A stretch of 35,745 nt of DNA, taken from a virus. The stretch covers positions 1-35,745 of IMG/VR virus record IMGVR_UViG_3300047287_000356; one strand, written 5' to 3'. Made by a program: the position numbers and the translations under genes. A model generated the notes under the pieces. It was given only the letters and a program-made list of their open reading frames with translations. It had not been told where the DNA came from and searched no databases. Positions 1,723 to 33,455 of this stretch are shown in pieces. Position 1 is the first letter of the stretch. Each line of letters opens with the position of its first letter.

Positions 1723-3588
1723 CTACATAAAGTAGGGAGCAAAGTGAGACCAGTATCCAACCTCGTTAGGTCTGATTACAACGTAGTCTTTGTGGACAAT
1801 AGCTCTGTTTAACCTGTAAGCTCGTTGGTAGATCTCAATAAGACCTTTAATCTCGTCTTCGGCAAAAGCCTGGTCACGACGCAACATTGAGTCGAAATCA
1901 CCAATGTCCTGACGTACCATGGAGTATTCCGCAGTATACTCGTCAGGGATTTTGCTACGCAGGTTGCGAATCTCCTCGATGAGGCGTTTGATAGTAAAGA
2001 TAATCGAACCCGGCGAGGTGTACTCATTAATACGGATTCTATCCATCTCATTCTCGTTATCAGTAGGATCGATAATAATACGATCCCAAGTGATCTCATC
2101 GTTAACACCAAGGAAGCGCGAAGCGATAATCTTCGACAATTTATCCTTTTTGGTTTGGTCTTTAAGGTCTCCGGAATCATCAAAGTCGGAGAAATTAAGT
2201 TCGGTATGAGGAACGAGCTGTTTGGCAATGTCTCCTTCACCCATACCCCCCATACCACCAAGTGGCATTTCAGACTTCTGCAGTGAGGGGATTTCAAGTT
2301 TATCCCGCAACCAGTCTAGGTCGCCGACATTATACCCAATAGCAGTAAGTTGGCTGATCAACTGGACGACTTTTACCGGGTCTTCTCGCTGTTCAAGGTC
2401 TTCAAAGTTTCTACGAAAACGTGGAATAGGTGCGCCGGGATAGTTAAGTTCTACAATCCAGCGAATAAACGTTGCGTTGAGTGTTTCGTCCAGCTCTTCG
2501 GAGAAGGCTTTGGCTTTACGCATACGCACAGAGTCAGCGACCTGATCGCGAGCAAAACTACCAACGGAGCCGGTCTCCTGACCTACGGTGGTTTCACCGC
2601 TTATAATAAAGCTAATCTGCTGGTCTACGTAATTGATCAGATTCTCATAGATCTCCGGCCGACCTGCACTTGATTCAAGCCATTTGATATCCATCTCGTC
2701 AGGGATAACAACAGCGGTCTCTTGACCCAGACGTTGCAACGCAGTGAATAGATTTTTAATCTCTTCCTCTGGTGTGCCAAGGGTGAATTTACCTACCGCT
2801 GTAGGTGTGGTATGTTTGTCAGCATATTGAAGCCAGAAGCTCATTAACGTGCGACGAAAATCAACCAGCGTGTAGAGCTGTCTGCCTAAGCCCGTACCAT
2901 ACGGGTCCATGAAGTTGCTGAACGCCCAGTGTCTATGGATGACCATAGACCTCATAGGCAGAGGCATACCTTCGACAGGAGACGATACTGTCAACAAACG
3001 TGGGCTAACACTGCCGTCTTCATTCAAGATGAATAAGAATCTTCTCGGGTCGCGAATTTTAATTTCAGATGGGATGACATAGTCCCCTTGCTTCATCCAA
3101 CAGATCTCACCGATAGAGATCCCCAAGATGAGGGATTCGCACATGCCTCGGACAAAGCTATTAAAAGCTGAGTTAGAACTCACTAGCATGTCCTTACCGT
3201 AAGATTGACGGGTATTACTACCCATATTATAGATTACCTGACGAACAAACTCTGCTACTTCTTCATCCCGGTCCGAAGTTGATACTGGGAATACCTCCCA
3301 TTTACGTTGGATGATTTCACCAGTTAACTTCTCCCACGCAGCAAGCACCTGGCTGTCAATAAACAGCCGCATGTATTGCTCAATGGCACGAGCACCACCC
3401 CCAGCCTCCTCAAGGAGGATGTCATCACGTCGGGGGAGGATAACACCGGCAGTTAGGCTAGGTAGACCTGTATACGAATACGGGTCAGCTTTGTGACCTG
3501 CAAGGTTACCCTGAGAAACCCCTAGAGCGTAATATCTGTCATAGTACCCCGTCTTGATACTAAACCCTTTCAGGTCTTTTTCATCCAT
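1723..3588 (-). CDS. portal protein (DUF935 / Mu gp29-like)
   Basis: The 621-residue product resembles the DUF935 portal family typified by Mu gp29. Portals form the dodecameric ring through which DNA is packaged and to which the neck attaches. Supporting segments are the central FRRTLMSFWLQYADKH, the helix-rich stem region with LFTALQRLGQETAVVIPD, and the later ISGETTVGQETGSVGSFARD, which is characteristic of that family. The C-terminal third is charged and helical and longer than the usual core. The ATG at 3588 is supported by a GTTTAAAG motif 23 bases upstream. The gene sits between an unknown 58-residue gene and the tail tube gene. No terminase gene is visible in the window, so packaging genes are either elsewhere or among the unknowns. 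Confidence 0.8.
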   Translation of the reverse strand: MDEKDLKGFSIKTGYYDRYYALGVSQGNLAGHKADPYSYTGLPSLTAGVILPRRDDILLEEAGGGARAIEQYMRLFIDSQVLAAWEKLTGEIIQRKWEVFPVSTSDRDEEVAEFVRQVIYNMGSNTRQSYGKDMLVSSNSAFNSFVRGMCESLILGISIGEICWMKQGDYVIPSEIKIRDPRRFLFILNEDGSVSPRLLTVSSPVEGMPLPMRSMVIHRHWAFSNFMDPYGTGLGRQLYTLVDFRRTLMSFWLQYADKHTTPTAVGKFTLGTPEEEIKNLFTALQRLGQETAVVIPDEMDIKWLESSAGRPEIYENLINYVDQQISFIISGETTVGQETGSVGSFARDQVADSVRMRKAKAFSEELDETLNATFIRWIVELNYPGAPIPRFRRNFEDLEQREDPVKVVQLISQLTAIGYNVGDLDWLRDKLEIPSLQKSEMPLGGMGGMGEGDIAKQLVPHTELNFSDFDDSGDLKDQTKKDKLSKIIASRFLGVNDEITWDRIIIDPTDNENEMDRIRINEYTSPGSIIFTIKRLIEEIRNLRSKIPDEYTAEYSMVRQDIGDFDSMLRRDQAFAEDEIKGLIEIYQRAYRLNRAIVHKDYVVIRPNEVGYWSHFAPYFM

Positions 3589-15760: not shown

Positions 15761-18355
15761 ATGGCAAACTTGAATAGACCGGGGGTTTTTGTCACCCAAA
15801 CCTCCACTGGTGGCTTGCCTCAACCTATCGCTACCCACGCAGTAGGTTACATCTTCGGTACCACCGAAAACGAGGAGTACTACAGCAATAATGCTCAAGG
15901 CTACTCCCCCCTGCTGCCTTATAAGCCCACTCAGATCGCTTCTACGGAAGATTTCGTAGCAAAATCCGGTGGGGTGATTCCTACAGCTAACGCTGGAGCT
16001 CTCGTTACTTATGACTCTATCAAAGGGTTTTTTGATAACGTAGGGACCAACGGCATTCTTTACTTCACCAGGGTAACTCCTACCCCGGAGACTTTGGTTA
16101 ACCTCGCAGCTTCTAGTGCTGGTAGTGGTTACAACGCCTTTGCCATTAAAGTAAACGGCAGGTATTTTGGTACACCGATCGGCATTAACGACGACGAAGG
16201 TACTGAGATCAAAGTAATTACAACCACCGGACTGGATCAGTACGATAACGCAAGAGACCTCTATCTGTTCCTGTCCGCATCTAGCGCTTCTTCGGACAAT
16301 TTCTCGGATTTCTACCGGGTAGAACAGACTGCAACAGAGGCTACACAGGCAAAATTCAGAATTTTCTCCAGGGACGTAACCAACCTACCAGAAATTAGCA
16401 ATTTTATTGCATATTCGTTCTCTGGAAGTGCTTATTCTTCTCCGGTAAACCTGCTCAGCTACACAACTCTGTACACTTCGATCAAAGAAGTCAACTTCCG
16501 TTGTGATTCTGTTGATGTTGGTACTGGTGAAGCCATCCGTTATGTATCAGGCGCCCAGTTAAGCTTGTTCATCGAGGCAAGAAACGACCAATTCCCTGGT
16601 ACTTACGACCCCGCAACTGATCAAAATCAAATCCTCAAGGATTTTCTAATTGACCAGAGCATTTACGCCAATGTAGTATCTATCCCCGACGGTAAAATCT
16701 TAGCTGTTTCGCTCGACTCCACCTCTGGTGTAGATCCTGCTAACAAGTGGAGAGATGTAGATGCTGGGTACTGGGTTTACGACCTTTCCGGTACGTCCTT
16801 TTCTCTGCTTGTAGATGGCTCGGACAAAATTCTACCTTCAGGGTCTATCTCTGGTGGTGTTAGAGAGGGCTATCTACCAAAAACCGTCCAGGTGTTCTAT
16901 GTCAACGTTCTTGGAGAAAACCGGGCCATTATCGTCAATGGCTCTACTCCTCAGGAGCTGGCTGACGAACTCCGGGACCAGCTAACTGCTCTGTTTGTGG
17001 AGAAGAACGTAGCTGAATACTACAAAATCGAGTCAGTAGCGTACCCGACTATCTCAACCGACACCTACACCGGTAACAACGGCAGTAGCTACTCGCTTCT
17101 AGTGAGCCAGGCTGGTGCTCCGTCTATTCGCCCGTCGTTTGAGGACAACTCCTATACCGGTAACGAGTTCTACTCGTTTGATTATGTCCTTAAGATCAAG
17201 ATCACCTCAAAAAATGGTGTTGCTGCTCCGGTAATTCCTGGTAACAACCGGTTTGGTATTCTGGACACCAACGTAGCGAGACTTAACTCATCGTCCCAGG
17301 ACGAAGACTATGAGTCTTACAAGCTTACCCAGATCGCAAAGGCCCAGGACTTTGTATATGCCATCGAAGAAGGGATGGGCTCTGCTACATTCGCACCTGG
17401 GTTCTTGTTTGCCCCTGAAGCGTATGCCGAGCTGGTATACAATGTAGACGGAGACCTGCAGAGTAAGTCTGAGGCCCGCCTTGAGAGGGTAAAGATCACC
17501 CAGTCCCTGACGAAAGTCGCAGAAGGTAACGTGGGTGTGACAGAAGGTGTCACTAACACCCAGCACATCGCTCTGATCGACTGTGGTGGAGACGAAGAGA
17601 ACCTGCCCCAGGCTCAAGACGAACTGGCAGTTATCAAATCGCTTGTCGGGGTACCTTATGGTCATGCCGCTTTCTACGCGCCTTACGTCCAAAACCTGAA
17701 CGACCGCTACGTGCCTGCTAGCGCATACGTCGCTGGTATTGCTTGCTCTCGTTATATCAACGAAGGCTTCCAGCAACCCCCTGCTGGCTCGCGTTACCCT
17801 TTGCGCGGTGCAAAGGGTCTTAAATTCACGATCAGTGCTCAACAACAGGAAGTCACTTACGCCCTCGGCCTGAACCCGATCCGTTCTCTGCCTAACCGTG
17901 GGATCGTTGCCTGGGGTGCTCGCACCTTATCAAGTAACGCTCTGTTCAAGTTCGTTAATACCCGCGCTATTCTCAACGTCATCATCGACGTTCTGGGGCG
18001 TAGCTTCGACGACATTCTGTTTGAACAGATTGATTCTGCAGGTACTCTGTACTCGCGGATTCGCTCCGTAGCTTCTCAAGTTCTGCACCAGTTCTACCGT
18101 CAAGGAGCACTGTTCGGCGGAAGCCCTGAGCAAGCCTATGCGATTGTCTGCTCCACAGACAACAACTCCAACACCGATCTAGAGCAGGGTACGGTCCAAG
18201 CCGACATTTACGTGTCCACCAGCCCGACTCTTGAGCGTATTCCCATCACCTTGATCCGCACTCCTGCTGGTCAAGTAGCCCTGATTAGCGATTCTTTCTC
18301 CCGTAATGGAGATAGATATACCACATCTTTGGGTATTACCTCTAACTTCCTGTGA
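15761..18355 (+). CDS. contractile tail sheath protein
   Basis: The 864-residue product is a tail sheath subunit, whose contraction drives the tube into the host. The N-terminus MANLNRPGVFVTQTSTGG is the usual sheath start. The C-terminal domain carries conserved blocks: RYPLRGAKGLKF, then LGLNPIRSLPNRGIVAWGAR, TLSSNALFKFVNTRA, a QGALFGGSPEQAYAI loop and VQADIYVSTSPTLERIPI. It is longer than Mu or P2 sheaths (about 400-500 residues), with a large insertion in the middle, as in other large myoviruses. Its stop overlaps the protease start (TGATG), so the two are translationally coupled. A late-type motif precedes it. Confidence 0.93.
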   Translation: MANLNRPGVFVTQTSTGGLPQPIATHAVGYIFGTTENEEYYSNNAQGYSPLLPYKPTQIASTEDFVAKSGGVIPTANAGALVTYDSIKGFFDNVGTNGILYFTRVTPTPETLVNLAASSAGSGYNAFAIKVNGRYFGTPIGINDDEGTEIKVITTTGLDQYDNARDLYLFLSASSASSDNFSDFYRVEQTATEATQAKFRIFSRDVTNLPEISNFIAYSFSGSAYSSPVNLLSYTTLYTSIKEVNFRCDSVDVGTGEAIRYVSGAQLSLFIEARNDQFPGTYDPATDQNQILKDFLIDQSIYANVVSIPDGKILAVSLDSTSGVDPANKWRDVDAGYWVYDLSGTSFSLLVDGSDKILPSGSISGGVREGYLPKTVQVFYVNVLGENRAIIVNGSTPQELADELRDQLTALFVEKNVAEYYKIESVAYPTISTDTYTGNNGSSYSLLVSQAGAPSIRPSFEDNSYTGNEFYSFDYVLKIKITSKNGVAAPVIPGNNRFGILDTNVARLNSSSQDEDYESYKLTQIAKAQDFVYAIEEGMGSATFAPGFLFAPEAYAELVYNVDGDLQSKSEARLERVKITQSLTKVAEGNVGVTEGVTNTQHIALIDCGGDEENLPQAQDELAVIKSLVGVPYGHAAFYAPYVQNLNDRYVPASAYVAGIACSRYINEGFQQPPAGSRYPLRGAKGLKFTISAQQQEVTYALGLNPIRSLPNRGIVAWGARTLSSNALFKFVNTRAILNVIIDVLGRSFDDILFEQIDSAGTLYSRIRSVASQVLHQFYRQGALFGGSPEQAYAIVCSTDNNSNTDLEQGTVQADIYVSTSPTLERIPITLIRTPAGQVALISDSFSRNGDRYTTSLGITSNFL

Positions 18356-20748: not shown

Positions 20749-22653
20749 ATGATGAATCTTGATCAGGTTAGGGTTATTGACCCTATCCTCACGCAACTTG
20801 CACAGGGTTAATTTGGTAGCCGTGCCACGGAGTAATCTGTGGTATAATAAGGGGGTGAATTGCTGGGAAACCTAAGTTCAAACCTTCAGCCATGGAAACC
20901 ATCTACGATCAGTTTATTAAACACTGTTCGAGCATTGAGAGTCAAGAAGTAAAGTCTGGAATTTATATGGAAAAACACCATATAGTACCCAGACACTGCG
21001 GGGAGGTGATGAGAAAACTAACATCTTACTTCTCTCCAGAAAAAATCACATCTTAGCTCACTACTACAGGTGGATTTCTTATAATTCTCCTAAAGATAAA
21101 ATAGCCTATCTTTTTATGGTAGGTGATCCTACAGGGGAAGCAAAGAGAGAGTCGGGTAGATTAGCTCAAAAGACATGGACGCCACAAAAGCGATCTGAAT
21201 GTTCTAAAAAAGCTTATCAAACCATGCTTATAAGGAATTCTGGGATGGTCTTTAGGGGTGAGTCTTGGAAGAAAAATGTCTCTGATGCTGCCAAGCGAAA
21301 TATCGCTGAAAACAGATCAAAGAGAATCTCTCCAGACACTCTAATTCTATATGATTCTGTATTTGAATTCAAATATAAGAACTCAAAGGAAGTCATCAAC
21401 CAGTCCGACTTTTCTGATTTTGTCCAAACCAGTAAGCACTTGTGCTCTGTTTTTGGACTAAACGTCAAGGAAAGTGAGCATAAAAAATTCTTAGTCTTTG
21501 TGAAAGGAAAAAGAAAATCTTTTCATGGCATTGTTTTGAATAAGGTAATCAGCAGCCAAGCCGTAGAGGGCACAGGTTCTACGGAAGGTTCAACGACTAG
21601 ACAGTGAGTCCCAACAATAATCTGTCCAAGAGCGCCCTCCAACCTGCAAAGGTTGAAGATATAGTCTGGACTTATAGGAAACTATAAGAAGTAGAGTTTA
21701 AATGACTTTACGTTAACATACCGTACAAAAATGCTGAAGGTGTAGCTACCTTCTTCGGTCCTGCAGTTAGTATGAATGTTCGCGCTGGTAGAACACTTGT
21801 GTTTGGCAAGGAAGCCTTTGCTGCACAAACTTTCTTACGCGCACCTGGTGCCAACATTCAGAAGATCCAAAACCAATTCGGTACTCGTAGTTTCTCGCTT
21901 CGTCAAGAAGCGATTAGCTGGGCAATCGCCGAAGAGGTCGCTGCCGAAGCCAAAAACGGGGCCGCACAGATCGACCTGCGTCAATACGCAGCTAAGGACG
22001 CTGCTAACCGTCTCATGCAGTCCTGGGAAGTACAAGTCGCTGACAAAGTGACCGACATTGCCCAGTACGAGACCGACAACGTCCTCGACCTGTCCACCTA
22101 CAACGGTGGTGCTGATCAATTTAATAACCCCACCTCGGACATCGAGGTGCTCATGGACGCCGCTAAGGAACAAGTCCGTAGCCAAATTGGTATTTATCCC
22201 AACAAGCTCGTACTTAGTCCTGATGCTTTTAACGCCCTCAAGCGTAACAAGCGTATCCGTGACTTCATGCAGCGGGGTATTCTGGTCGACGAGAAGAGCC
22301 TTGCTCAGATCTTCGGCCTTGATGAGATTCGTGTTGCTCGTCGTCTCAAGCTGGACCAGGAAACTGGTGCTCTGGAGAACATCTACAACAACATCGCGAT
22401 TCTCTTCTACCATCCTAGTGCTTCGACTGATGGTTTCATGCCTGCTCTTGATAGCAACTACGGTAATCCGGCTTATGCCTATACCTACACGCTGTCTGGC
22501 TATCCTATCGCCACTCCTGAGCGCTTCAACGTAGACACCCGTGTCTTCACTGGTGACATCCTTGTTGAACGTAGCTTTGAGCTGGTTGGTATGGGTGAAA
22601 ACGGCAAGTGCGGTTCTGGCTTCGTGTTCCAGAATCCGGTTGGTGAACTTTGA
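20749..22653 (+). CDS. major capsid protein, split by a group I intron
   Basis: Exon 1 (20749-20808) encodes MMNLDQVRVIDPILTQLAQG and then meets an in-frame TAA. Exon 2 (21724-22653) resumes YKNAEGVATFFGPAV and runs to TGA, for 329 residues in total. The join restores LAQG-YKNAEG, the continuity expected in HK97-fold capsid proteins, where an N-terminal VRVIDPILT helix is followed by GYKNAE. Exon 2 holds the family-like segments GRTLVFGKEAF and NKLVLSPDAFNALKRNK. Without splicing only a 20-residue peptide would be made, or an N-truncated protein from ATG 21772, so the intron must be removed for capsid assembly. The gene follows decoration and scaffold genes and is closed by a strong terminator. 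Confidence 0.9.
20840..20848 (+). promoter_or_regulatory. extended -10 promoter candidate inside intron
   Basis: TGGTATAAT (TGn plus a perfect -10 hexamer at 20843-20848) lies 43 bases before the intron endonuclease ATG. The 12-base string CTGTGGTATAAT is identical to that of the tRNA-Val promoter at 31739-31750. No good -35 is seen here, and the bases also belong to the intron fold. Confidence 0.4.
20892..21607 (+). pseudogene. intron-encoded HNH homing endonuclease, frameshifted
   Basis: Frame one starts at ATG 20892 (METIYDQFIKHC) and reaches the HNH start EKHHIVPRHCG, but stops at TAG 21054. The rest of the family pattern continues in another frame: DEKTNILLLSRKNHILAHYY, then a basic C-terminal domain to TGA at 21607. 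Adding one G to the GGGG run at 21000-21003 would join both into a 238-residue protein of the T4 HNH type. So it is a recently broken homing endonuclease, a recoding site, or a sequencing error in a homopolymer. The gene's 3' end overlaps the intron R element. If truly broken, the intron may splice but not home. Confidence 0.8.
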
Positions 22654-24688: not shown

Positions 24689-25624
24689 ATGTTACTGGAA
24701 ATTGAAAATCAACTCCACAAGAGAATCCACAGGACTCTGGGACAGGACGCTGTAGTATTAAGGTTGGCAGAAGAACTGGATAAATCCGGCAGGGTGTCGG
24801 AACAGACGATGATCATTGTTAGTTTCACATCGAGTGAGACAACTAATCCTAACAAGGGAGCCTACATCCCGACTGTTCGCGCTAGACTTCTTACGTATAC
24901 CCTGACATTAGTCCAGAAGCAAGCCCAGCGAGAGGGGCACAGCTTTGCCCTACCTTTACTCGACCTCATGGCAGATTCTGTGACTGGTTGGGTGCCAGAG
25001 GTCCCAGGTCTTGAATTCCGAACAGGATTTGAGCTGTCTTCAGAAAAGTTTGTCCAGATAACCGAAGAAGCTTCTCAGTTTATTTACGAGCAGTCGTATG
25101 AAATTGAAGTATCTGTATCCGATGGTAGATTTTACAGCCAGCCTTGTGCAGCTTATGATCCTATTTCTATCGAAGATTACCTACCAAAACGTACCTGCCT
25201 CGTAACCCCAGGTGGGTTGAAAACTGGCCTGGCTGTATGGCGGCGTAAGGTTAATGACATAGAGTACGACGAGAAAGTAGTTGACTGTGATCAAGTATGT
25301 AAATCCCGCATGGGAGACGTACTGGAAGTAACCTGTTCTGAATCATTAAATGGAACCGCAACATATAGGTTTATTCCCAAAGAAGCTATTAGCTATGTAA
25401 GCGGGGACAGGATCATCGACGAAAACAAAGTCGTCTCAGGTACTTTGCAGAAAGTCTGGAAATGCTACAGAGGTAACACTGGCGAGTCTTGTCCGCCTTG
25501 GTTTAAAGTTGATGTAGGCATGAATCTGTGGAGAAATGCCATTGACACAGTTCCCAACCAAGATGAAGGAACATCGGCAGTACAACAACTGCAGACGATA
25601 AAAACAAAACACAAACCGCAATGA
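24689..25624 (+). CDS. tail completion/terminator protein (Mu gp37-like, putative)
   Basis: The 311-residue protein's first 170 residues resemble Mu gp37 (DUF1834)-type tail terminators: N-terminal helix (LEIENQLHKRIHRTL), beta strand TMIIVSFTSSET, helical LTYTLTLVQKQAQREGH followed by LPLLDLMADSVTGW, then paired strands ending YEIEVSVSDG. Such proteins cap the tail at the neck. The C-terminal 130 residues form an extra domain with several Cys (CDQVCKSRMGD and WKCYRGNTGESCPPW). This extra domain has no assignment. It overlaps the ferritin gene by 4 bases (ATGA), so they are coupled. Confidence 0.5.
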   Translation: MLLEIENQLHKRIHRTLGQDAVVLRLAEELDKSGRVSEQTMIIVSFTSSETTNPNKGAYIPTVRARLLTYTLTLVQKQAQREGHSFALPLLDLMADSVTGWVPEVPGLEFRTGFELSSEKFVQITEEASQFIYEQSYEIEVSVSDGRFYSQPCAAYDPISIEDYLPKRTCLVTPGGLKTGLAVWRRKVNDIEYDEKVVDCDQVCKSRMGDVLEVTCSESLNGTATYRFIPKEAISYVSGDRIIDENKVVSGTLQKVWKCYRGNTGESCPPWFKVDVGMNLWRNAIDTVPNQDEGTSAVQQLQTIKTKHKPQ

Positions 25625-26034
25625 AAGATCAACTAATTGAAACCCTCACGGCTCTGAACTGTGTCGCTAATGCAGCTCAACTAGCCCACTGGAACATTAC
25701 CGGCAAAGACTTTTATCAACTACACCTGATGTTTGAACGTATCTACGGTACGCTATCAGGTCAGCTTGATGCTCTTGCTGAACAAGCACGTGGGTGTGGT
25801 GTTGAAATCCCGGCCAAGGTGTTCAATAGCGTCCCGGAGGTAGAGTGGTCCAGTAGTGAAGAGCTTGTAAAAGAAATTGGCAGACTGAATAGCAAGTATA
25901 AGTCCAGTCTTAAAGATTTGCATGAAGATTGTGGCGATGCCGGTAATCTTGGCCTGGTAAACCTAATCGAAGGCTATCTGACGGATGTAAATACGGTTGA
26001 ATTTCTGCTAAAAGCCACTGCTGACCTGCTCTGA
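25621..26034 (+). CDS. Dps-like ferritin
   Basis: A 137-residue four-helix protein of the Dps/ferritin-like family. The signature HWNITGKDFYQLHLMFE is at residues 23-39. The ferroxidase ligands H23, H35, E39, D50 and E54 have exactly the spacing of the E. coli Dps set (H51, H63, D67, D78, E82). Dps dodecamers oxidise ferrous iron with peroxide at subunit interfaces and so protect DNA. It is shorter than bacterial Dps and lacks the Lys-rich N-terminal tail, so DNA binding of the tail type is unlikely. The ATG overlaps the stop of the virion gene upstream, so it is probably expressed late. The role in infection is inferred: protection of DNA from oxidative damage or iron handling. Confidence 0.85.
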   Translation: MKDQLIETLTALNCVANAAQLAHWNITGKDFYQLHLMFERIYGTLSGQLDALAEQARGCGVEIPAKVFNSVPEVEWSSSEELVKEIGRLNSKYKSSLKDLHEDCGDAGNLGLVNLIEGYLTDVNTVEFLLKATADLL

Positions 26035-26035
26035 T

Positions 26036-26308
26036 TTAAAAAGTCAGAGTTTTACGAGTTAACAAATTTATAATCGTACGGGGATCAGCAGACGACGCCA
26101 CAGGTATGTGCGGTGCGTCTAGAATATACCCGCTGTAATATACTTTGCCAGTGTATTGGCTTTCATAACCTTCAATGTGCACCGTCCCCACTCCGGGGAC
26201 AAACATTACAACAGATTTATCGTTGACTACGTCGATTTTATCGACATTGAGCATCAGCTTGAGAAGATTTCTCCCACCAAGCGAATCGATAAGAGCGTTG
26301 TCTACCAT
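26036..26308 (-). CDS. hypothetical protein after DNA polymerase (90 aa)
   Basis: The 90-residue beta-rich protein (LLKLMLNVDKIDVVNDKSVV then GVGTVHIEGYESQ) is unrecognised. Its ATG overlaps the polymerase stop codon by several bases, so it is translated together with the polymerase, and it converges on the ferritin gene with a 1-base gap. A replication accessory role is possible on position only. Confidence 0.6.
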   Translation of the reverse strand: MVDNALIDSLGGRNLLKLMLNVDKIDVVNDKSVVMFVPGVGTVHIEGYESQYTGKVYYSGYILDAPHIPVASSADPRTIINLLTRKTLTF

Positions 26309-28971
26309 AGATCTAGCATGGTGTAGGACTTTCCATCAGGTTCAGGTTGTGTTTGAGATACGGTCAGCGTGGAAGATGTCGCTGACTTACGGAAAATCCG
26401 GTCAATCTCAATACTAGATAGCCAGGCATTGGCCACAGGCATCTCGTAGATACCAAAATTAAACCGTAGCCAGGACCAGCACCAGACATGGGCGACTTGG
26501 AACATCCTTGCAACGTCTACAGCTTGATCTTCAGGACACATGTACAGCACACTGTCGTGAACAGCCATGCAGAACTTCGCATCGAGATTGTGCTGCTGAC
26601 AGAGCCATACCATTGCGGTGACGAACCCATGTAGCATAGCACTTCCAGTAGACTGGATGCACCAATTGTTACGCATGGTCCAGAAGTCAGAGTTGACCGT
26701 CTCAGGGCGGAAAGCTGTCGACATCAGTGTGCCCGACAAAGGGTTGACTGGGCAAGCAGAGTCGGCAATGGCAGCCATGACGTTGTAAGCAAAAGAATCC
26801 GAACCGTCAACGAGGCTTCCGGTCATTGGAGAGACAACACCTTTTTTGGCACGGATTAGCTTTTTACCTAGCAGCATTGCTTCGGTCATAGGAATAGACT
26901 TGTTCCCTTGTCGAATAGTATCTGCGAGAGTCTTAGCTCCACAACCGTATAGCATGGCATAGTTACAACCCTTAGCAACACCACGGTTAGATGGCATACC
27001 GAGTGTTCGCGCAGTAACCGAGTGCATGTCAGTGCCATCGTCCTTAGAACCAGCAAGGATCGAATGGCTAAGTTGGCTACTACCGGCAACTTTATGATAC
27101 GAGTCGGCAAAGATACTGGCTACGACAGCCTCTTGAGCATCAAAGTCAGACTGGACGAAGGTATATCCGGCTGGGGCTTGAACTCTCGTCTTGATCTCGG
27201 ACCCGATTTTGTCGTATTTAGGGTCAGGTACAGTCAGCCACAGTCTCTCTCCGGCGCGGTTAGTCGATGTGTTATGCGGTACTGTAGCCGGAACGATCAA
27301 GTTAAACTTTGTACCGGGTTGTAATTTGTTATCTACTTGTACTGGAAGTTGTGCTAGCACACGGCTACGAACTGAAGTCCAGTAGGCGACATTAATCGCG
27401 AGTCGGATAAGCTCTTTAGCCTGAGGCAAGTCTGAACTCAACACCCCCGATTCAAATTCAGGCAGATACTCTTTACTAAGAATCCCACCAACGTTCGCCC
27501 CTTCTTTCTTATAGTGGGGGATTTTGAGATCTTTATTGCTGGCTCTGTCACGGTACATCCAGCCAGAGTCTTTAACATACACAATCGGAGAGTCATTCCA
27601 CTTAAAACGCAACAAAAGATGCGAGATACGAGACTTAGTAGTAATAGGCTTCATTACCACCTTACCAGAATCGTCGAGTTCGCTAATATTTCTCACCCAT
27701 TGCGGTACGCCATACCACTTAGAACGAGGTTTGTTTGCCTTAGTAAGCTGGTTATTGCACGTCCAGTCAAGTTGCCTCAACCACGGGTCTTGATCGATTT
27801 CAAGCTGGTCCTCTCGCCAGTCTTTGTACAGCTCCTGGGCCAGTTCCTGCAAAAGTTTATCTTGTTCGGCCAGGGCGGCTTGCCATTGACTCTCACAGCC
27901 TTGTAGCCATTGGTCCCAGTTATCGACCACAGGAAGAACCGAAGACGATATAGCGAAGTGCCCGCATAGAGTAGTAGGTGAAGGATTGCTATTCAGGTAC
28001 TTAGGTACAAGCTTACTTACTAACTCCCATGTACGGAATACATCGTTAAGGGCATAAGAGACTAACTCCTCCCTATCAGGTTGCATTTCTGCCATGCTAT
28101 TCGCTACGACAAAAATATCACGAGTCTTCTTGTCTTGCTTTTCCATGCGCCTAGGTGCGCAGTGGAAGTTGTAACAATCGACGAGGTTGTTCAATGACCC
28201 GTATTTAGCCCACTTCGGCTGGTAGCGGATGTCCTCTTCGTCATCGGATGAATCCTTAAAAAACCAGCGTTGATCTGAGGCTAGGCCACTCACATTGATA
28301 TGAGCGGACATTGTATCGAACCACAAGTTAGTATTGCCTAATGTGTAAGCTTCTGCGGTCCGTTGCCGGTCAAATGCAACGTTATGGGCAATCAACAGTG
28401 CTTTATCAGTACCAAGGGGCACAAACTGTGGGCTGTAAGTCAAGTCAGGGTTGACAAAACACTCGTGCATCCAGACGTAATATGCACTATCACTAACAGC
28501 AGTTGCAAGTATCGGGTGCCCGAATGAGCTACCTTTTACGAAGGTCTCACAGTCAAATACTGCAATATCGCAACCTAGCTTGTCGACTTGTTTTACAACC
28601 CAACCGGCCTGTGACCAGGCATAACTGACCCAGCCAGGAACATATAACAATTCAGAAGCTGGGGGTGGCTCAGGTACTGACGCAGAAGAAAACTTATTAA
28701 GCAAGTCAATCTTGCCCTGCATCAGTGTTCGTGAGATCGTTTCAAAATGTTGAGAGATATTCTTACCTTGTAGCAAGGGGAGATCCAGGTCGTCAGGTAA
28801 GTTGCTAAAAGACTTGGGGTTTTTTATGGGAAATTCTACGCCGAATTTCTCCATGTTCGACCTGATCTGGCTGATGGCGTATTCATCGACCTTCTGCTGC
28901 TTGACGTTGCCAAAGACCTTTTGCTGGATCTTTTCCGGTAGAATTGCGTAGCCGAGTTGATTGGTTTCCAT
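26302..28971 (-). CDS. family A DNA polymerase, mitochondrial Pol gamma-like
   Basis: An 889-residue replicative polymerase with 3'-5' exonuclease. Exo I FDCET (D140, E142), Exo II HNVAFDR (196-202) followed by LWFDTMSAHINVSGL, and Exo III around YALNDV (306-311). Polymerase motif A is SDFDAQE (608-614), motif B NRGVAKGCNYAMLYGCG (R663, K667, Y671), and motif C HDS (805-807), where most relatives have HDE. The region before motif A (KIGSEIKTRVQAPAGY) and after it (GTDMHSVTARTLGM), and the FWTMRNNWCIQSTGSAMLHG block, follow mitochondrial Pol gamma rather than E. coli Pol I. A Pol-gamma-like enzyme is known from cyanophage S-TIM5. Phosphatase and polymerase overlap (TGATG). No primase or helicase is in this window. 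Confidence 0.93.
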   Translation of the reverse strand: METNQLGYAILPEKIQQKVFGNVKQQKVDEYAISQIRSNMEKFGVEFPIKNPKSFSNLPDDLDLPLLQGKNISQHFETISRTLMQGKIDLLNKFSSASVPEPPPASELLYVPGWVSYAWSQAGWVVKQVDKLGCDIAVFDCETFVKGSSFGHPILATAVSDSAYYVWMHECFVNPDLTYSPQFVPLGTDKALLIAHNVAFDRQRTAEAYTLGNTNLWFDTMSAHINVSGLASDQRWFFKDSSDDEEDIRYQPKWAKYGSLNNLVDCYNFHCAPRRMEKQDKKTRDIFVVANSMAEMQPDREELVSYALNDVFRTWELVSKLVPKYLNSNPSPTTLCGHFAISSSVLPVVDNWDQWLQGCESQWQAALAEQDKLLQELAQELYKDWREDQLEIDQDPWLRQLDWTCNNQLTKANKPRSKWYGVPQWVRNISELDDSGKVVMKPITTKSRISHLLLRFKWNDSPIVYVKDSGWMYRDRASNKDLKIPHYKKEGANVGGILSKEYLPEFESGVLSSDLPQAKELIRLAINVAYWTSVRSRVLAQLPVQVDNKLQPGTKFNLIVPATVPHNTSTNRAGERLWLTVPDPKYDKIGSEIKTRVQAPAGYTFVQSDFDAQEAVVASIFADSYHKVAGSSQLSHSILAGSKDDGTDMHSVTARTLGMPSNRGVAKGCNYAMLYGCGAKTLADTIRQGNKSIPMTEAMLLGKKLIRAKKGVVSPMTGSLVDGSDSFAYNVMAAIADSACPVNPLSGTLMSTAFRPETVNSDFWTMRNNWCIQSTGSAMLHGFVTAMVWLCQQHNLDAKFCMAVHDSVLYMCPEDQAVDVARMFQVAHVWCWSWLRFNFGIYEMPVANAWLSSIEIDRIFRKSATSSTLTVSQTQPEPDGKSYTMLDLW

Positions 28972-29690
28972 CAGTAGTAGAGCATGAATTCATTGCGGTC
29001 AGAATAAAATACTCCGACCCCTTCAAACAGTGTAGCGTCGATAATACGTAGATTATCACGCAAGTACGGATAACCGTAATGTCCTAACACGTATTGATAG
29101 GCAGGGTCAAGGTGATCTGCCAAATCGTCTTTTTTGAACCATGCGTAACTAGGACCGGTTAAGATGTCGGAATCTCTACTAAATTTGGAATTAGGATAGT
29201 ACGCATGAGCAATACGGTACGTTGTTCCAGCACTGGACAACTCAAGATACTTGGGCAAGTTTCTAATCCAGCTAATAAGTGACCGGCGCTCCTCGCCTTT
29301 TAGGCGGTTCATAGCAACAACGGTATGCCGGACAGAGTCAGACTTGATATCTTTCAATGGTTGGTTAATTGATTCAACTATGTAACCTTCGTTATTTCCC
29401 ATTATCACAGTGGCTTTACCCTGCTGCTGCAAACTCCGGACAAATTGCAGTACCTGCAACGGTGGCGTGGGTTTAGCTCGTTTGAAATATCGTTTATGAT
29501 GTAATATGTCCCCCATAAGTACGAAGTGGTACTCACCTCGACGTCTGGAGTCCTTGATAATTTTTTGCAGAACGTCGAGACGTCCATGCAGGTCAGCAAT
29601 GAAACAGATCGGGACGACAGGACTTGAACCTGCACACTTTTCAGCGTCTGGGGTTGAACCAGGTACCTCTACCAACTCCGCTTCCTCCAT
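28971..29690 (-). CDS. calcineurin-like metallophosphatase
   Basis: The domain begins at about residue 27 (VPICFIADLHGRLDVLQKI), with metal-site motifs ADLHG (D33, H35), GDILHHK (D61) and GNNE (98-101), and later IAHAYYP and VLGHYGYP. These are the metallo-phosphoesterase blocks. The usual GNH[ED] has Asn for the His that acts as acid, and GDxxDRG has HHK, so activity may be altered or the substrate atypical. Family members remove phosphate from proteins, nucleotides or dinucleoside polyphosphates. The first 26 residues are encoded by a tRNA-Leu gene and have no protein-like pattern. No start codon lies between tRNA and domain, so the true start is uncertain. It precedes the polymerase with a TGATG overlap. 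Confidence 0.7.
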   Translation of the reverse strand: MEEAELVEVPGSTPDAEKCAGSSPVVPICFIADLHGRLDVLQKIIKDSRRRGEYHFVLMGDILHHKRYFKRAKPTPPLQVLQFVRSLQQQGKATVIMGNNEGYIVESINQPLKDIKSDSVRHTVVAMNRLKGEERRSLISWIRNLPKYLELSSAGTTYRIAHAYYPNSKFSRDSDILTGPSYAWFKKDDLADHLDPAYQYVLGHYGYPYLRDNLRIIDATLFEGVGVFYSDRNEFMLYY

Positions 29691-29825: not shown

Positions 29826-30326
29826 CTACAAGCCCTGTCTGTAATTGGGATTGGGACTTCCTCCTCTGACAACTTTAGACTGCCTGCTGGAATATTTACC
29901 AGCACATGACCGACTACAAAATGGACCAGCTTTTTTCTTTAATAAGTTCCCCTTTACATCATTCATAGGTTTAGTAGCAGACTTTTTGCACTCTGGGCAG
30001 GTAAAAGTGTACATCTGCTGTGTGTGTCTCAAAGCATGATATTTAGAGGAGTTCTCCGCCCTGGTTAAAACTTGCAGATTTTCTGGGCTGTCATTGATGG
30101 GATCTCCATCTATGTGATCTACAGTTTCTTCTTCAGTTAGTTTTCTGCCTATCTTAATCTCAAGAATTAGACGAGCTGCCTGGCAAGTTTTCCAACGTGC
30201 ACCATCATATACATCATATATTTTCCTATTGTTTTTCTTCCATATGTATGGACCTCTGAGTTTTGCTTTCGGCCCATAAATAGGTAAGAGTTGCTGAAGA
30301 GTAGGGACGGTGGGAGTCGAACCCAC
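29826..30326 (-). CDS. HNH homing endonuclease (tRNA-linked)
   Basis: An HNH endonuclease with AP2-like N-terminal sequence (KNNRKIYDVYDGARWKTC), the HNH block DHIDGDPINDSPENLQVLT and a C-terminal zinc-ribbon-like CPECKKS with CSRSCAG. Such enzymes cut an intronless or gene-free allele to spread their own gene. The nearest in-frame start is a GTG at 30326, inside the tRNA-Leu(UAG) gene. The frame stays open through the tRNA to an ATG at 30422. No start lies between tRNA and the protein-like part, so the start cannot be settled. It separates tRNA-Leu from the gene fragment downstream, which suggests insertion there. Confidence 0.75.
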   Translation of the reverse strand: MGSTPTVPTLQQLLPIYGPKAKLRGPYIWKKNNRKIYDVYDGARWKTCQAARLILEIKIGRKLTEEETVDHIDGDPINDSPENLQVLTRAENSSKYHALRHTQQMYTFTCPECKKSATKPMNDVKGNLLKKKAGPFCSRSCAGKYSSRQSKVVRGGSPNPNYRQGL

Positions 30327-30384
30327 AATGCCAAAGGCACCGGAACCTAAAACCGGCCGATCTACCAGATTCTCGTACGTCCCC
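30302..30384 (-). tRNA. tRNA-Leu(UAG)
   Basis: An 83-base cloverleaf: acceptor GGGGACG/CGTCCCT, D arm CGA/TCG with GGTAGA, anticodon loop UUUAGGU (UAG, decoding CUA), variable arm TGCC-TTT-GGCA, T arm GTGGG/CCCAC with TTCGACT. CCA is not encoded. The stem next to the anticodon loop ends in a U-U mismatch but is otherwise sound. The frame of the HNH gene runs through it. Confidence 0.9.
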
Positions 30385-30427
30385 ATAATCTCCAGTGCGT
30401 CTACGTCTCCTTGGGTGGACATGGGCT

Positions 30428-30436
30428 ATTCTAGCA
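30428..30436 (-). promoter_or_regulatory. extended -10 element before tRNA-Leu(UAG)
   Basis: Minus-strand TGCTAGAAT, identical to that before the other tRNA-Leu, 43 bases upstream of this tRNA. It follows the stop of the 51-residue gene. Confidence 0.45.
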
Positions 30437-30440
30437 CATC

Positions 30441-30596
30441 TTAGGGGCTTAACACTAGGTCCCTGGAGTGAACAAGAGCTGTAGACCCATTATGAAGATT
30501 TCTAACCAGAAAAATTGCGTAATGGCCTGGAAAGTCGATCAGCATGTGGAGGATGACAACCCTAGAACCTCTGTACCAGGCGTGTCTGCCTCTCAC
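30441..30596 (-). CDS. small hypothetical protein (51 aa)
   Basis: Start GTG 30596 overlaps the stop of the membrane protein gene (GTGA). The 51 residues (VRGRHAWYRGSRVVILHMLI to VHSRDLVLSP) are beta-like and basic at the start, resembling a small SH3/KOW-type barrel, but no family is claimed. A homologous 3' fragment lies at 29712-29825, so the gene belongs to a duplicated module ending in tRNA-Leu. Confidence 0.6.
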   Translation of the reverse strand: MRGRHAWYRGSRVVILHMLIDFPGHYAIFLVRNLHNGSTALVHSRDLVLSP

Positions 30597-31024
30597 CTTG
30601 CCTCTTGGGATTGATGTGGTTGTTGTAGTGTAATTCCGAAGAAATTGGTTGTATATCCGGCAACTGCTGCGGCTAGAGCTAACGCTCCCATAGATCCCCA
30701 CATAAATCGTGATAAAGTGTCGATTCTTGAGTTGATCTTATCTGCCTCACGACGGACATCCTCCCGATCCTCAAGGCGTTTCTTCTCGTTAGTCTCAATA
30801 AGTTTGATCATCGCGGCATGGGCCTCTGCTGACCGTTCGATTTTTTCCTCATGCCTGATGAGGATTTTGGAAATATTCTGACTAGACTCAGAAATTTTCT
30901 CCACGGCAAGTTCTAGCTTAGTGAGCATATCTTTTGAAAGCTCCTCATACACCAGGAGCTTTTCCTCCAGAACCGCCATGCGTACCTCGCCTACGCGACT
31001 GTTGCCGAAGAAAGAATTAGGCAT
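30593..31024 (-). CDS. coiled-coil membrane protein (XhlA-like, putative)
   Basis: Started at ATG 31024 the 143 residues form a coiled coil at about 15-105 (EEKLLVYEELSKDMLTKLEL onward, with heptads and many Glu/Lys), then a single C-terminal transmembrane helix (MWGSMGALALAAAVAGY at about 112-128) and a short polar tail. This order resembles hemolysin XhlA-type holin-associated proteins, whose coiled coil lies on one side of the inner membrane. A lysis role is a guess; no endolysin or classic holin is nearby. The ATG is chosen over an upstream TTG because GTTTAAAG lies 23 bases before it. Confidence 0.6.
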   Translation of the reverse strand: MPNSFFGNSRVGEVRMAVLEEKLLVYEELSKDMLTKLELAVEKISESSQNISKILIRHEEKIERSAEAHAAMIKLIETNEKKRLEDREDVRREADKINSRIDTLSRFMWGSMGALALAAAVAGYTTNFFGITLQQPHQSQEAR

Positions 31025-31044
31025 TACTGACAATAGTTACAATA

Positions 31045-31581
31045 CTACTTTAAACGCACACGTCCTTTTACCCAACCGGGAGGTATGGGTTCAGTCAGAG
31101 GGATAAATCTATTAGTAACTCCGTTGTTAATGACGTATCTACTCATATAGCCTTCTACCCAACCAGGTGGGATAATATCAAACTTTGAGATATATTTTTC
31201 AATAACCCCGTTGTTAATTCTTTTTCTATTCTCCGATAGCAGCAAACCCCGACGAGACTGTTCTTTACTATATTCTAATTCATCCGTGAATCTTTTTCTA
31301 TAAGAGTTGTGCATGTGAAACATTTTGTCCAAATCGGGATATTTTTCCCATTTAGCTTTTCCGCCTTTCTCAGCAGCTTTGCTGACCCAAAACTTTCCTC
31401 TTTCGTAGAGGTGTGGGGGCAAATATTTTAGCTGTCGGCGATGAATGCACGGTCTACCGTAATGCTCGGACTGGTATACGCTCAAGATAGCGTGTGCTCT
31501 GGCACTGATCAGTACGAGGTTGCTCGGATCGTCAGACCCCCCCATGCACCTTGGGACGATGTGATGCAACTCCTTGGTCAT
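31045..31581 (-). CDS. HNH homing endonuclease (behind tRNA-Thr)
   Basis: A 178-residue HNH protein: ELHHIVPRCMGGSDDPSNLV at residues 4-23, then a helical ARAHAILSVYQSEHYG. The C-terminal half holds two copies of a motif with INNGV followed about 13 residues later by IPPGWV, probably DNA-contact modules. The ATG lies one base after the 3' end of tRNA-Thr, so it rides on the tRNA transcript. Its last codons contain the late motif of the next gene. A freestanding homing endonuclease linked to tRNAs is common in T4-like phages. Confidence 0.85.
   Translation of the reverse strand: MTKELHHIVPRCMGGSDDPSNLVLISARAHAILSVYQSEHYGRPCIHRRQLKYLPPHLYERGKFWVSKAAEKGGKAKWEKYPDLDKMFHMHNSYRKRFTDELEYSKEQSRRGLLLSENRKRINNGVIEKYISKFDIIPPGWVEGYMSRYVINNGVTNRFIPLTEPIPPGWVKGRVRLK
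31048..31055 (-). promoter_or_regulatory. late promoter-like motif GTTTAAAG before membrane protein gene
   Basis: Minus-strand GTTTAAAG, within the last codons of the HNH gene, 23 bases before ATG 31024. Confidence 0.6.
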
Positions 31582-31582
31582 A

Positions 31583-31654
31583 AGCCGGATAACAGATTTG
31601 AACTGTTGGCCTGAACTTTACAAAAGTCCTGCTCTACCACTGAGCTAATCCGGC
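31583..31654 (-). tRNA. tRNA-Thr(UGU)
   Basis: Full cloverleaf: acceptor GCCGGAT/ATCCGGC, D arm AGCTC/GAGC, anticodon GGACT-TTTGTAA-AGTTC (UGU, decoding ACA), T arm ACAG/CTGT with TTCAAAT, discriminator T. CCA is not encoded. It lies 3 bases after tRNA-Val in the same transcript. Confidence 0.95.
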
Positions 31655-31657
31655 AAA

Positions 31658-31729
31658 TGGGCAGTGGGGGAATCGAACCCACGACATCTTGCTTGTAAAG
31701 CAAGCGCTCTACCGCTGAGCTAACCGCCC
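31658..31729 (-). tRNA. tRNA-Val(UAC)
   Basis: Full cloverleaf: acceptor GGGCGGT/ACTGCCC, anticodon CTTGC-TTTACAA-GCAAG (UAC, decoding GUA), T arm GTGGG/CCCAC with TTCGATT, discriminator A. CCA is not encoded. It is the first gene after a strong promoter. Confidence 0.96.
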
Positions 31730-31738
31730 ATCTGTGTA

Positions 31739-31767
31739 ATTATACCACAGACTAAATGGTTTGGCAA
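31739..31767 (-). promoter_or_regulatory. sigma70-type promoter for tRNA-Val/tRNA-Thr
   Basis: Minus strand TTGCCA (31767-31762), 17-base spacer, TATAAT (31744-31739) with upstream TGG. The -10 ends 9 bases before the tRNA-Val 5' end, so transcription should begin almost at the mature end. Confidence 0.85.
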
Positions 31768-31799
31768 AAAAAGACCCTGAGAACTTTTGATCCCCAGGG
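31766..31799 (-). terminator. Rho-independent terminator after structured RNA region
   Basis: Minus strand CCCTGGGGAT / GTTCTCAGGG forms a 10-pair stem with G-U pairs around an AAAA loop, followed by TCTTTTTTT. Its T tract runs straight into the -35 of the tRNA-Val promoter. Confidence 0.8.
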
Positions 31800-31825
31800 C
31801 CTGTTTTTTGAACAACACTCTTGAC

Positions 31826-32156
31826 CCGCATTATGCGAAACTAACAACACAAGACCTGATGGGTCTAAATCTAAGACCCAGAGCAGTGACGAATGCAGGG
31901 CGGTTTGCCCTGTGAGACTGCTGCACTAAGTTAGTGCGCAGTAATATGAGTGGCCTATACCTCCTCCAAACTTTTGGACCGCATTATGCGGAACTAACAA
32001 CACAAAGCCCGATGGGGTCTTAATAAAGACACAGAGCGGGAGCGGTATTGGGCAGGGGGATTAACCTGCCGAGACTCTTACACATGATTAGTAATGTGTA
32101 GAGCGGAAATCCAGGAGACTTATGCCCCCTCCAAACTCTCGGACCGCATTATGCGG
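31826..32156 (-). ncRNA. tandem structured non-coding RNA region, two units
   Basis: No gene fits here. Three copies of the palindrome CGCATTATGCG (31827, 31980, 32145) bound two related units of about 153 and 165 bases. Each unit has, on the minus strand, GTTTGGAGG shortly after the palindrome, three further hairpins whose stems are kept but whose bases differ, and a conserved TTGTGTTGTTAGTT before the next palindrome. Compensated stems include GCACTAA/TTAGTGC against TACACAT/ATGTGTA, and CAGGGC/GCCCTG against GGCAGG/CCTGCC. The region ends in a terminator. The strand is inferred from that terminator and from flanking genes. I do not recognise a known RNA family. Confidence 0.65.
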
Positions 32157-32174
32157 GACAACCAATGGATTATT

Positions 32175-32381
32175 TTAGTTATTTTTACCCGAGCGGCTTG
32201 GGAGATTAACCTTCCAATCCGGACCGTCAAGGGCTGACCAAGTTTCGTATAGCCGGTTTTGGCTTACGAAAAACACAGCCCCGTCTCTGGCCATCTCAAG
32301 GGAAGCGGTATTGTTGCTTTCCATTATTTCTTTAAACACTTTTTGAGCGTTTTCGGAAACGGGCTCGACAGTGATGATCAC
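32175..32381 (-). CDS. hypothetical alpha/beta protein, start uncertain (68 aa or longer)
   Basis: From GTG 32381 the product has 68 residues: VIITVEPVSENAQKVFKEIM, then SLEMARDGAVFFVSQNR and a polar tail. The frame stays open upstream, in protein-like sequence (HTLGGHQSQSELDWV, NLKLSDVV), to the 3' end of tRNA-Arg. No ATG, GTG or TTG lies in that stretch. It looks like an alpha/beta domain whose first strand lies before the GTG, so it may be truncated at its 5' end or use a rare start. Function unknown. Confidence 0.5.
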   Translation of the reverse strand: MIITVEPVSENAQKVFKEIMESNNTASLEMARDGAVFFVSQNRLYETWSALDGPDWKVNLPSRSGKNN

Positions 32382-32460
32382 AACGTCAGAGAGTTTGAGA
32401 TTACTAACCCAGTCTAGCTCGGACTGGGACTGGTGTCCACCTAGTGTGTGGTTTACAGAA

Positions 32461-32534
32461 CACCCCCTGCAGGACTTGAACCTGCGGCACCTCGATTAGA
32501 AGTCGAGTGCTCTATCCATCTGAGCTAAGGGGGC
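32461..32534 (-). tRNA. tRNA-Arg(UCU)
   Basis: Full cloverleaf: acceptor GCCCCCT/AGGGGGT, D arm AGCTC/GAGC, anticodon CTCGA-CTTCTAA-TCGAG (UCU, decoding AGA), T arm GCAGG/CCTGC with TTCAAGT, discriminator G. CCA is not encoded. It lies 14 bases after the gene at 32549. Confidence 0.95.
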
Positions 32535-32548
32535 AGGAAAGGGGTAAA

Positions 32549-33125: not shown

Positions 33126-33455
33126 TCACCGTACAACTTTCTTAATGTTGTAGCTTTGAGGCTTGAAATACCTCAGCACCTCAGATACAAGGTGTTCAGA
33201 CTGGATAGACCCGCAAGAAAACATGTCAATAGCAATGCTATTTTTCTCGGGCCAGGAGTGAGCTGAAAAATGTGACGTGGACAACAAGGCGAGGTAGGTG
33301 TACCCCCCTTCTCCAGGGAACTTGTGGTAACAATCGCTTAAAACCTCTGCCATACACTCCCGTAGAAGCGGTCTGATAAAATCGATAAAAGATTGCATGT
33401 CTTCCAGAAGCAGTCTATCGACTTCAAATAGATCGACAAGGAAGTGCTGTCCCAT
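33126..33455 (-). CDS. speD: S-adenosylmethionine decarboxylase
   Basis: A 109-residue prokaryotic-type SAM decarboxylase, making decarboxylated SAM for spermidine synthesis. The signature STSHFSAHSWPE is at 59-70 and MFSCG at 78-82. Ser61, His66 and Cys81 match the spacing of Ser63, His68 and Cys83 of the Thermotoga enzyme: the Ser becomes the pyruvoyl cofactor after self-cleavage, and His and Cys assist. The residue before the Ser is Thr where Glu is usual. SpeD is a common auxiliary metabolic gene of cyanophages. Expression with the leftward early or middle block is inferred. No spermidine synthase gene is in the window. Confidence 0.93.
   Translation of the reverse strand: MGQHFLVDLFEVDRLLLEDMQSFIDFIRPLLRECMAEVLSDCYHKFPGEGGYTYLALLSTSHFSAHSWPEKNSIAIDMFSCGSIQSEHLVSEVLRYFKPQSYNIKKVVR

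Follow-up and report, generated by a model that had tools for sequence, protein, structure and literature searches.

Two questions are raised by a DNA polymerase gene found in a 35,745-base virus record, hereafter referred to as the window: how closely this phage enzyme is related to the mitochondrial replicase Pol gamma, and what it means that the third acidic residue of its motif C is a serine. The relation between cyanophage and mitochondrial Pol gamma has already been published, in a work that lists S-TIM5 among the phages with a Pol gamma and credits the hypothesis of a phage origin to Filee et al. 2002 (PMC7156551). The first-pass annotation of the window had assigned the gene to the Pol gamma type rather than to bacterial Pol I.

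Relatives of the polymerase were gathered from IMG/VR, phage records and genome contigs. Maximum-likelihood trees were built under LG+C20+F+G4 PMSF, with the yeast and human sequences, the only two eukaryotes included, taken from PDB alignments; the Mic1 sequence was put together from the products of two exons. Some contigs were sampled twice, and distinct sequences were therefore counted.

Family assignment and catalytic motifs

The window ORF starts with ATG, contains no internal stop (Table 1), and codes for a 3'-5' exonuclease and family A polymerase of the Pol-gamma type. Its likeness to mitochondrial Pol gamma is far above chance: the Pfam model of the mitochondrial polymerase exonuclease (DNApol_Exo, PF18136) matched above its cut-off at E = 4.9e-50 and DNA_pol_A at E = 1.7e-10, while phmmer searches against PDB returned yeast Mip1 as the top hit (E = 3.1e-116), human POLG at E ~1e-86, and the best bacterial Pol I at only E = 0.0026. 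An AlphaFold model, for which the input alignment consisted of the window protein and viral-contig proteins, reached a mean pLDDT of 85.9 and a pTM of 0.85. The top structural matches of this model were all Pol gamma (TM mostly 0.77-0.87 over the query), and in VIA-align comparisons 750-856 residues were aligned with Pol gamma at Z 28-38, against Z ~16 for Pol I, the predicted fold being that of Pol gamma over the full chain.

Although Pol I, T7-type enzymes and Pol gamma are all family A polymerases with motifs A, B and C in common, there is practically no chance that the window polymerase is of the Pol I or T7 type with a superficial likeness to Pol gamma, an origin ruled out by profiles, tree and fold: bacterial PolA-type models gave 13-26 bits against cut-offs of 600-720 (12.5-13 bits for NCBIfam polA, below the same cut-off range), the exonuclease domain fits the mitochondrial model, the Pol I fold matches are far weaker, and an outgroup made up of the E. 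coli Pol I, T7 and Pasto enzymes was split from every Pol-gamma sequence at 100 SH-aLRT. Clustering with T7 gp5 was not seen, T7 and Pasto forming a separate clade. The assignment made by the first-pass annotation is thus upheld by profiles, fold comparison and phylogeny; the exonuclease and polymerase motifs that it had reported are all present in the ORF, as are the three inter-motif strings it had quoted, which align with human POLG RVGSELKAMVQAP, GTDLHSKTATTVGI and LDTMSMHMAISGL.

The four exonuclease acids (D140, E142, D201 and D310), the motif A aspartate D609, the steric-gate glutamate E614, K667 and Y671 of motif B, and the HD of motif C with its catalytic aspartate (H805, D806) are all in place. 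The motif residues listed in Table 1 are invariant in 28 phage relatives, with the exception of the motif B tyrosine and the motif C serine, which vary between phage groups. Invariance in these relatives extends to R572, Q773 and H805, the equivalents of residues of the Pol gamma 'fidelity switch', in which a role for R853 has been described (PMC11122685). In the sequence alignment, nothing in the window polymerase corresponds to human POLG residues ~464-530 and 592-715, which belong to the spacer separating the exonuclease from the polymerase domain, so that the window enzyme looks like a compact, single-chain form of Pol gamma, presumably working without an accessory subunit.

Table 1. Coordinates in the window of the polymerase gene, its motifs and genes of its genomic context
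Feature	Residues	Position	Strand	Remarks
DNA polymerase, Pol-gamma type	889 aa	26302..28971	-	Pfam, PDB phmmer, trees, AlphaFold model
ExoI DCETFV	140-145	28537..28554	-	D140 and E142
ExoII HNVAFDRQR	196-204	28360..28386	-	N197 and D201
ExoIII YALNDVF	306-312	28036..28056	-	Y306 and D310
Loop TNRAGE	570-575	27247..27264	-	R572, equivalent of Pol gamma R853
Motif A DFDAQEAVVA	609-618	27118..27147	-	Catalytic D609; steric-gate equivalent E614
Motif B RGVAKGCNYAMLYGCG	663-678	26938..26985	-	R663, K667, Y671
NWCIQSTGSAM	769-779	26635..26667	-	Q773, equivalent of Pol gamma Q1102
Motif C MAVHDSVLY	802-810	26542..26568	-	H805-D806-S807 instead of HDE
Calcineurin-like metallophosphoesterase		28971..29690	-	Directly upstream of polymerase; S-TIM5 homologue in the same place
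Major capsid protein		21772..22653	+	S-TIM5 homologue
Contractile tail sheath (myovirus), S-TIM5 type		15761..18355	+	Context
Portal protein		1723..3588	-	S-TIM5 homologue

Phylogenetic position and relation to the mitochondrial enzymes

In a phylogeny with Pol gamma, the S-TIM5 polymerase and Pol I, as had been proposed for this gene, the window protein was placed with Pol gamma and S-TIM5, and not within Pol I or T7-type polymerases. It lies in a monophyletic clade with S-TIM5 (100/100), whose members it matches at 59-65% identity, and this clade is adjacent to a clade of S-CBWM1 type (100/99). The mitochondrial enzymes grouped with Mic1-like phages (100/100), with the A-HIS phages in between. 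The main groups, including the S-TIM5 clade, recurred in trees made from the exonuclease only and from the polymerase only.

Among the sampled phages, it is therefore the Mic1-like freshwater cyanophages, not the S-TIM5 clade, that come closest to the mitochondrial enzymes. In AU tests, a union of the mitochondrial enzymes with the S-TIM5 clade was rejected at p 3e-76, at a cost of 93.5 log units, and unions with the S-CBWM1 clade and with A-HIS were rejected at p 3e-96 and p 3e-4, respectively. As the root of the phage and mitochondrial tree was weakly placed, with a support of 49 near it and very long outgroup branches, and as the trees contained just two eukaryotes and a joined Mic1 sequence, no direction of transfer is claimed.

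Several observations were made on the relatives themselves. No relatives of the A-HIS1 polymerase were found in viral contigs. The sole match in a bacterial genome was a fragment at the end of a contig from an uncultured Microbacteriaceae MAG (L101:6001-6984), an S-CBWM1-like Pol-gamma N-terminus with 33% identity to the window polymerase; this contig is probably a phage contig within the bin. The Pol-gamma genes of several phages are broken exactly at motif A (L103:4544-4847, L106:3985-4881 and L091:5812-7831). The break in the Mic1-like L103 holds a group I intron (Rfam RF00028); L106 and the HDS-type L091 share the break site and had no Rfam match at the gathering score, and the gene of L109 is unbroken.

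Genome context and proposed role

The window carries genes for a portal, a contractile sheath, a head maturation protease, a major capsid protein and head-tail proteins, and in a comparison with the 24.6-100 kb region of S-TIM5 it proved collinear, in reversed orientation, with the part from 36 to 62 kb, where the genes for portal, sheath, protease and capsid keep their order along with flanking genes. Identity to the S-TIM5 homologues amounts to 81% for the capsid, 66% for the protease, 64% for the portal, 59% for the polymerase and 41% for the phosphoesterase. This collinearity identifies an S-TIM5-like cyanomyovirus, whose host we infer, as the source of the window. The last base of the metallophosphoesterase gene is shared with the start codon of the polymerase, an overlap suggesting that the two are translationally coupled.

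Other genes were noted nearby. The gene of a small ferritin-like or Dps-like protein (25621-26034) separates the structural genes from the polymerase, and HNH or homing endonuclease genes lie amid four tRNA genes (Leu, Thr, Val and Arg) at 29826-32535; the HNH ORF at 29826-30422 overlaps tRNA-Leu (30301-30384), so that translation may really begin at a more downstream position. A SpeD-like S-adenosylmethionine decarboxylase (33126-33455) is likely an auxiliary metabolic gene.

Taken together, the gene almost certainly codes for the replicative, single-chain, proofreading Pol-gamma-type polymerase of an S-TIM5-like cyanomyovirus. A role as main replicase is suggested by its conservation throughout the clade and by the lack of a second polymerase among the window proteins scanned; helicase and primase are absent from the 35.7-kb fragment, and no published biochemistry was found for the window protein. 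The N-terminal DEDDy exonuclease would excise mismatches, and primer extension by two-metal catalysis would be the task of the palm, fingers and thumb in the C-terminal part. The metals would be carried by D609 and D806, with help from R572, Q773 and H805.

A motif C serine fixed across the S-TIM5 clade

The first-pass annotation had read motif C of the window polymerase as HDS, unlike HDE, and this reading is correct. The serine is not peculiar to the window sequence and represents the normal state of the clade, S-TIM5 included: HDS occurs in all the S-TIM5-clade polymerases examined (98 full-length rows, 63 distinct) and in none of the 45 distinct sequences (58 rows) of other phage Pol gammas, every one of which has HDE, as do the yeast and human enzymes. 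With 63 distinct relatives carrying it, sequence error behind HDS is ruled out. Essentially all HDS loci have S-TIM5-like neighbour genes, and no HDE locus has them. Given that HDS is found throughout the clade and is confined to this gene context, the change from HDE would most simply be a single clade-wide event, with HDS as the derived state, provided that HDE, seen in the other groups, in mitochondria and in Pol I, is the ancestral one. We found no description of the clade-wide HDS state in a limited search of the literature.

Because of this serine, in place of the third carboxylate that the HDE of the mitochondrial subgroup (Mip1/POLG proper) includes, the window polymerase is not filed with that subgroup; the wider family admits HDS, since S-TIM5, itself an HDS enzyme, is listed as a phage Pol gamma (PMC7156551). 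The window polymerase is a further phage relative of the mitochondrial replicase, of an already known kind. The HDS shared by its clade adds modestly to this: throughout the S-TIM5 lineage, a serine stands for the motif C glutamate, at a site whose substitution in humans is pathogenic.

What the serine may mean

HD-Ser is also the motif C of the T7-type single-subunit RNA polymerases. Within family A, the polymerase of Thermus phage Tt72 naturally carries HDS and is active; its S616A mutant keeps 76% of the activity, whereas D384A and D615A drop to 4% (PMC9324360). Catalysis rests on the two aspartates, and the Tt72 enzyme, at least, can do without the third acid. The existence of an active HDS enzyme indicates that loss of the glutamate is tolerable, and by this analogy the HDS of the S-TIM5 clade is most likely a variant that the enzyme tolerates and that may change its kinetics or fidelity. 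The serine would have replaced the third carboxylate in the common ancestor of the clade, accompanied by changes around the loop of the R853 equivalent and in the Q helix.

A refinement of this explanation, which we regard as possible but rather doubtful, is that the serine represents a functional adaptation affecting how the enzyme uses metals, how fast or accurately it works, or how it selects nucleotides, and that N567, N571, G574, S608, T775, S777 and A778, all specific to the clade, compensate for it. Several changes fixed in the S-TIM5 clade indeed fall within active-site segments. Around R572, N567 stands for G, N571 for R and G574 for V; ahead of motif A, S608 replaces A; and beyond Q773, T775 replaces S, and A778 takes the place of a residue that is D or E in all other Pol-gamma groups. 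Furthermore, the human equivalent of the serine position, E1136, belongs to the interaction network around R853 (PMC11122685). Fixed differences could, however, also result from drift along the stem branch of the clade, which measures 0.99 substitutions per site, other fixed changes lie elsewhere in the polymerase, outside the active-site segments, and S616A had little effect in the Tt72 enzyme. We thus put forward only tentatively that a whole cyanophage lineage may replicate with a Pol-gamma-type enzyme that dispenses with the third carboxylate through co-fixed active-site changes. If this were true, the S-TIM5 lineage would constitute a natural experiment on the human E1136 site, mutated in mitochondrial disease.

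Very improbable is the reading of the serine as the mark of a degenerate or inactive polymerase, for which it can be said that human E1136 has been called a member of an essential carboxylate triad and that E1136K is pathogenic (PMC8238196). The window polymerase is of full length, 63 distinct relatives conserve it, every other catalytic residue is invariant in the 28 phage relatives compared, and the Tt72 polymerase shows that an HDS family A phage enzyme can be active (PMC9324360).

Comparison with known systems

The closest known system is the polymerase of S-TIM5 (AEZ65654.1; Aurunvirus), which is similar over its full length, has HDS, and lies among the same neighbours in a collinear genome. 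The two differ in their diverged sequences and in the tail sheath, which is shorter in the window (864 vs ~1137 aa; 67% identical over the best 386 residues), and the phages are likely separated at the genus level. The polymerases of cyanophages S-CBWM1, A-HIS1, A-HIS2 and Mic1 are likewise of Pol-gamma type, at ~30-35% identity, but have HDE in motif C and lack the S-TIM5-like neighbour genes, those of the S-CBWM1 and A-HIS types also having a Phe in motif B. Yeast Mip1 and human POLG align end to end with the window polymerase in their exonuclease and polymerase domains and share its predicted fold, but have HDE and form a separate branch nearer to the Mic1-like phages, and POLG has the additional spacer parts. 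Finally, the polymerase of Thermus phage vB_Tt72 is, like that of the window, a family A phage enzyme with HDS for HDE, and differs from it in being described as a divergent type-A polymerase, with <30% identity to other family members and a Phe (F441) in motif B (PMC9324360).
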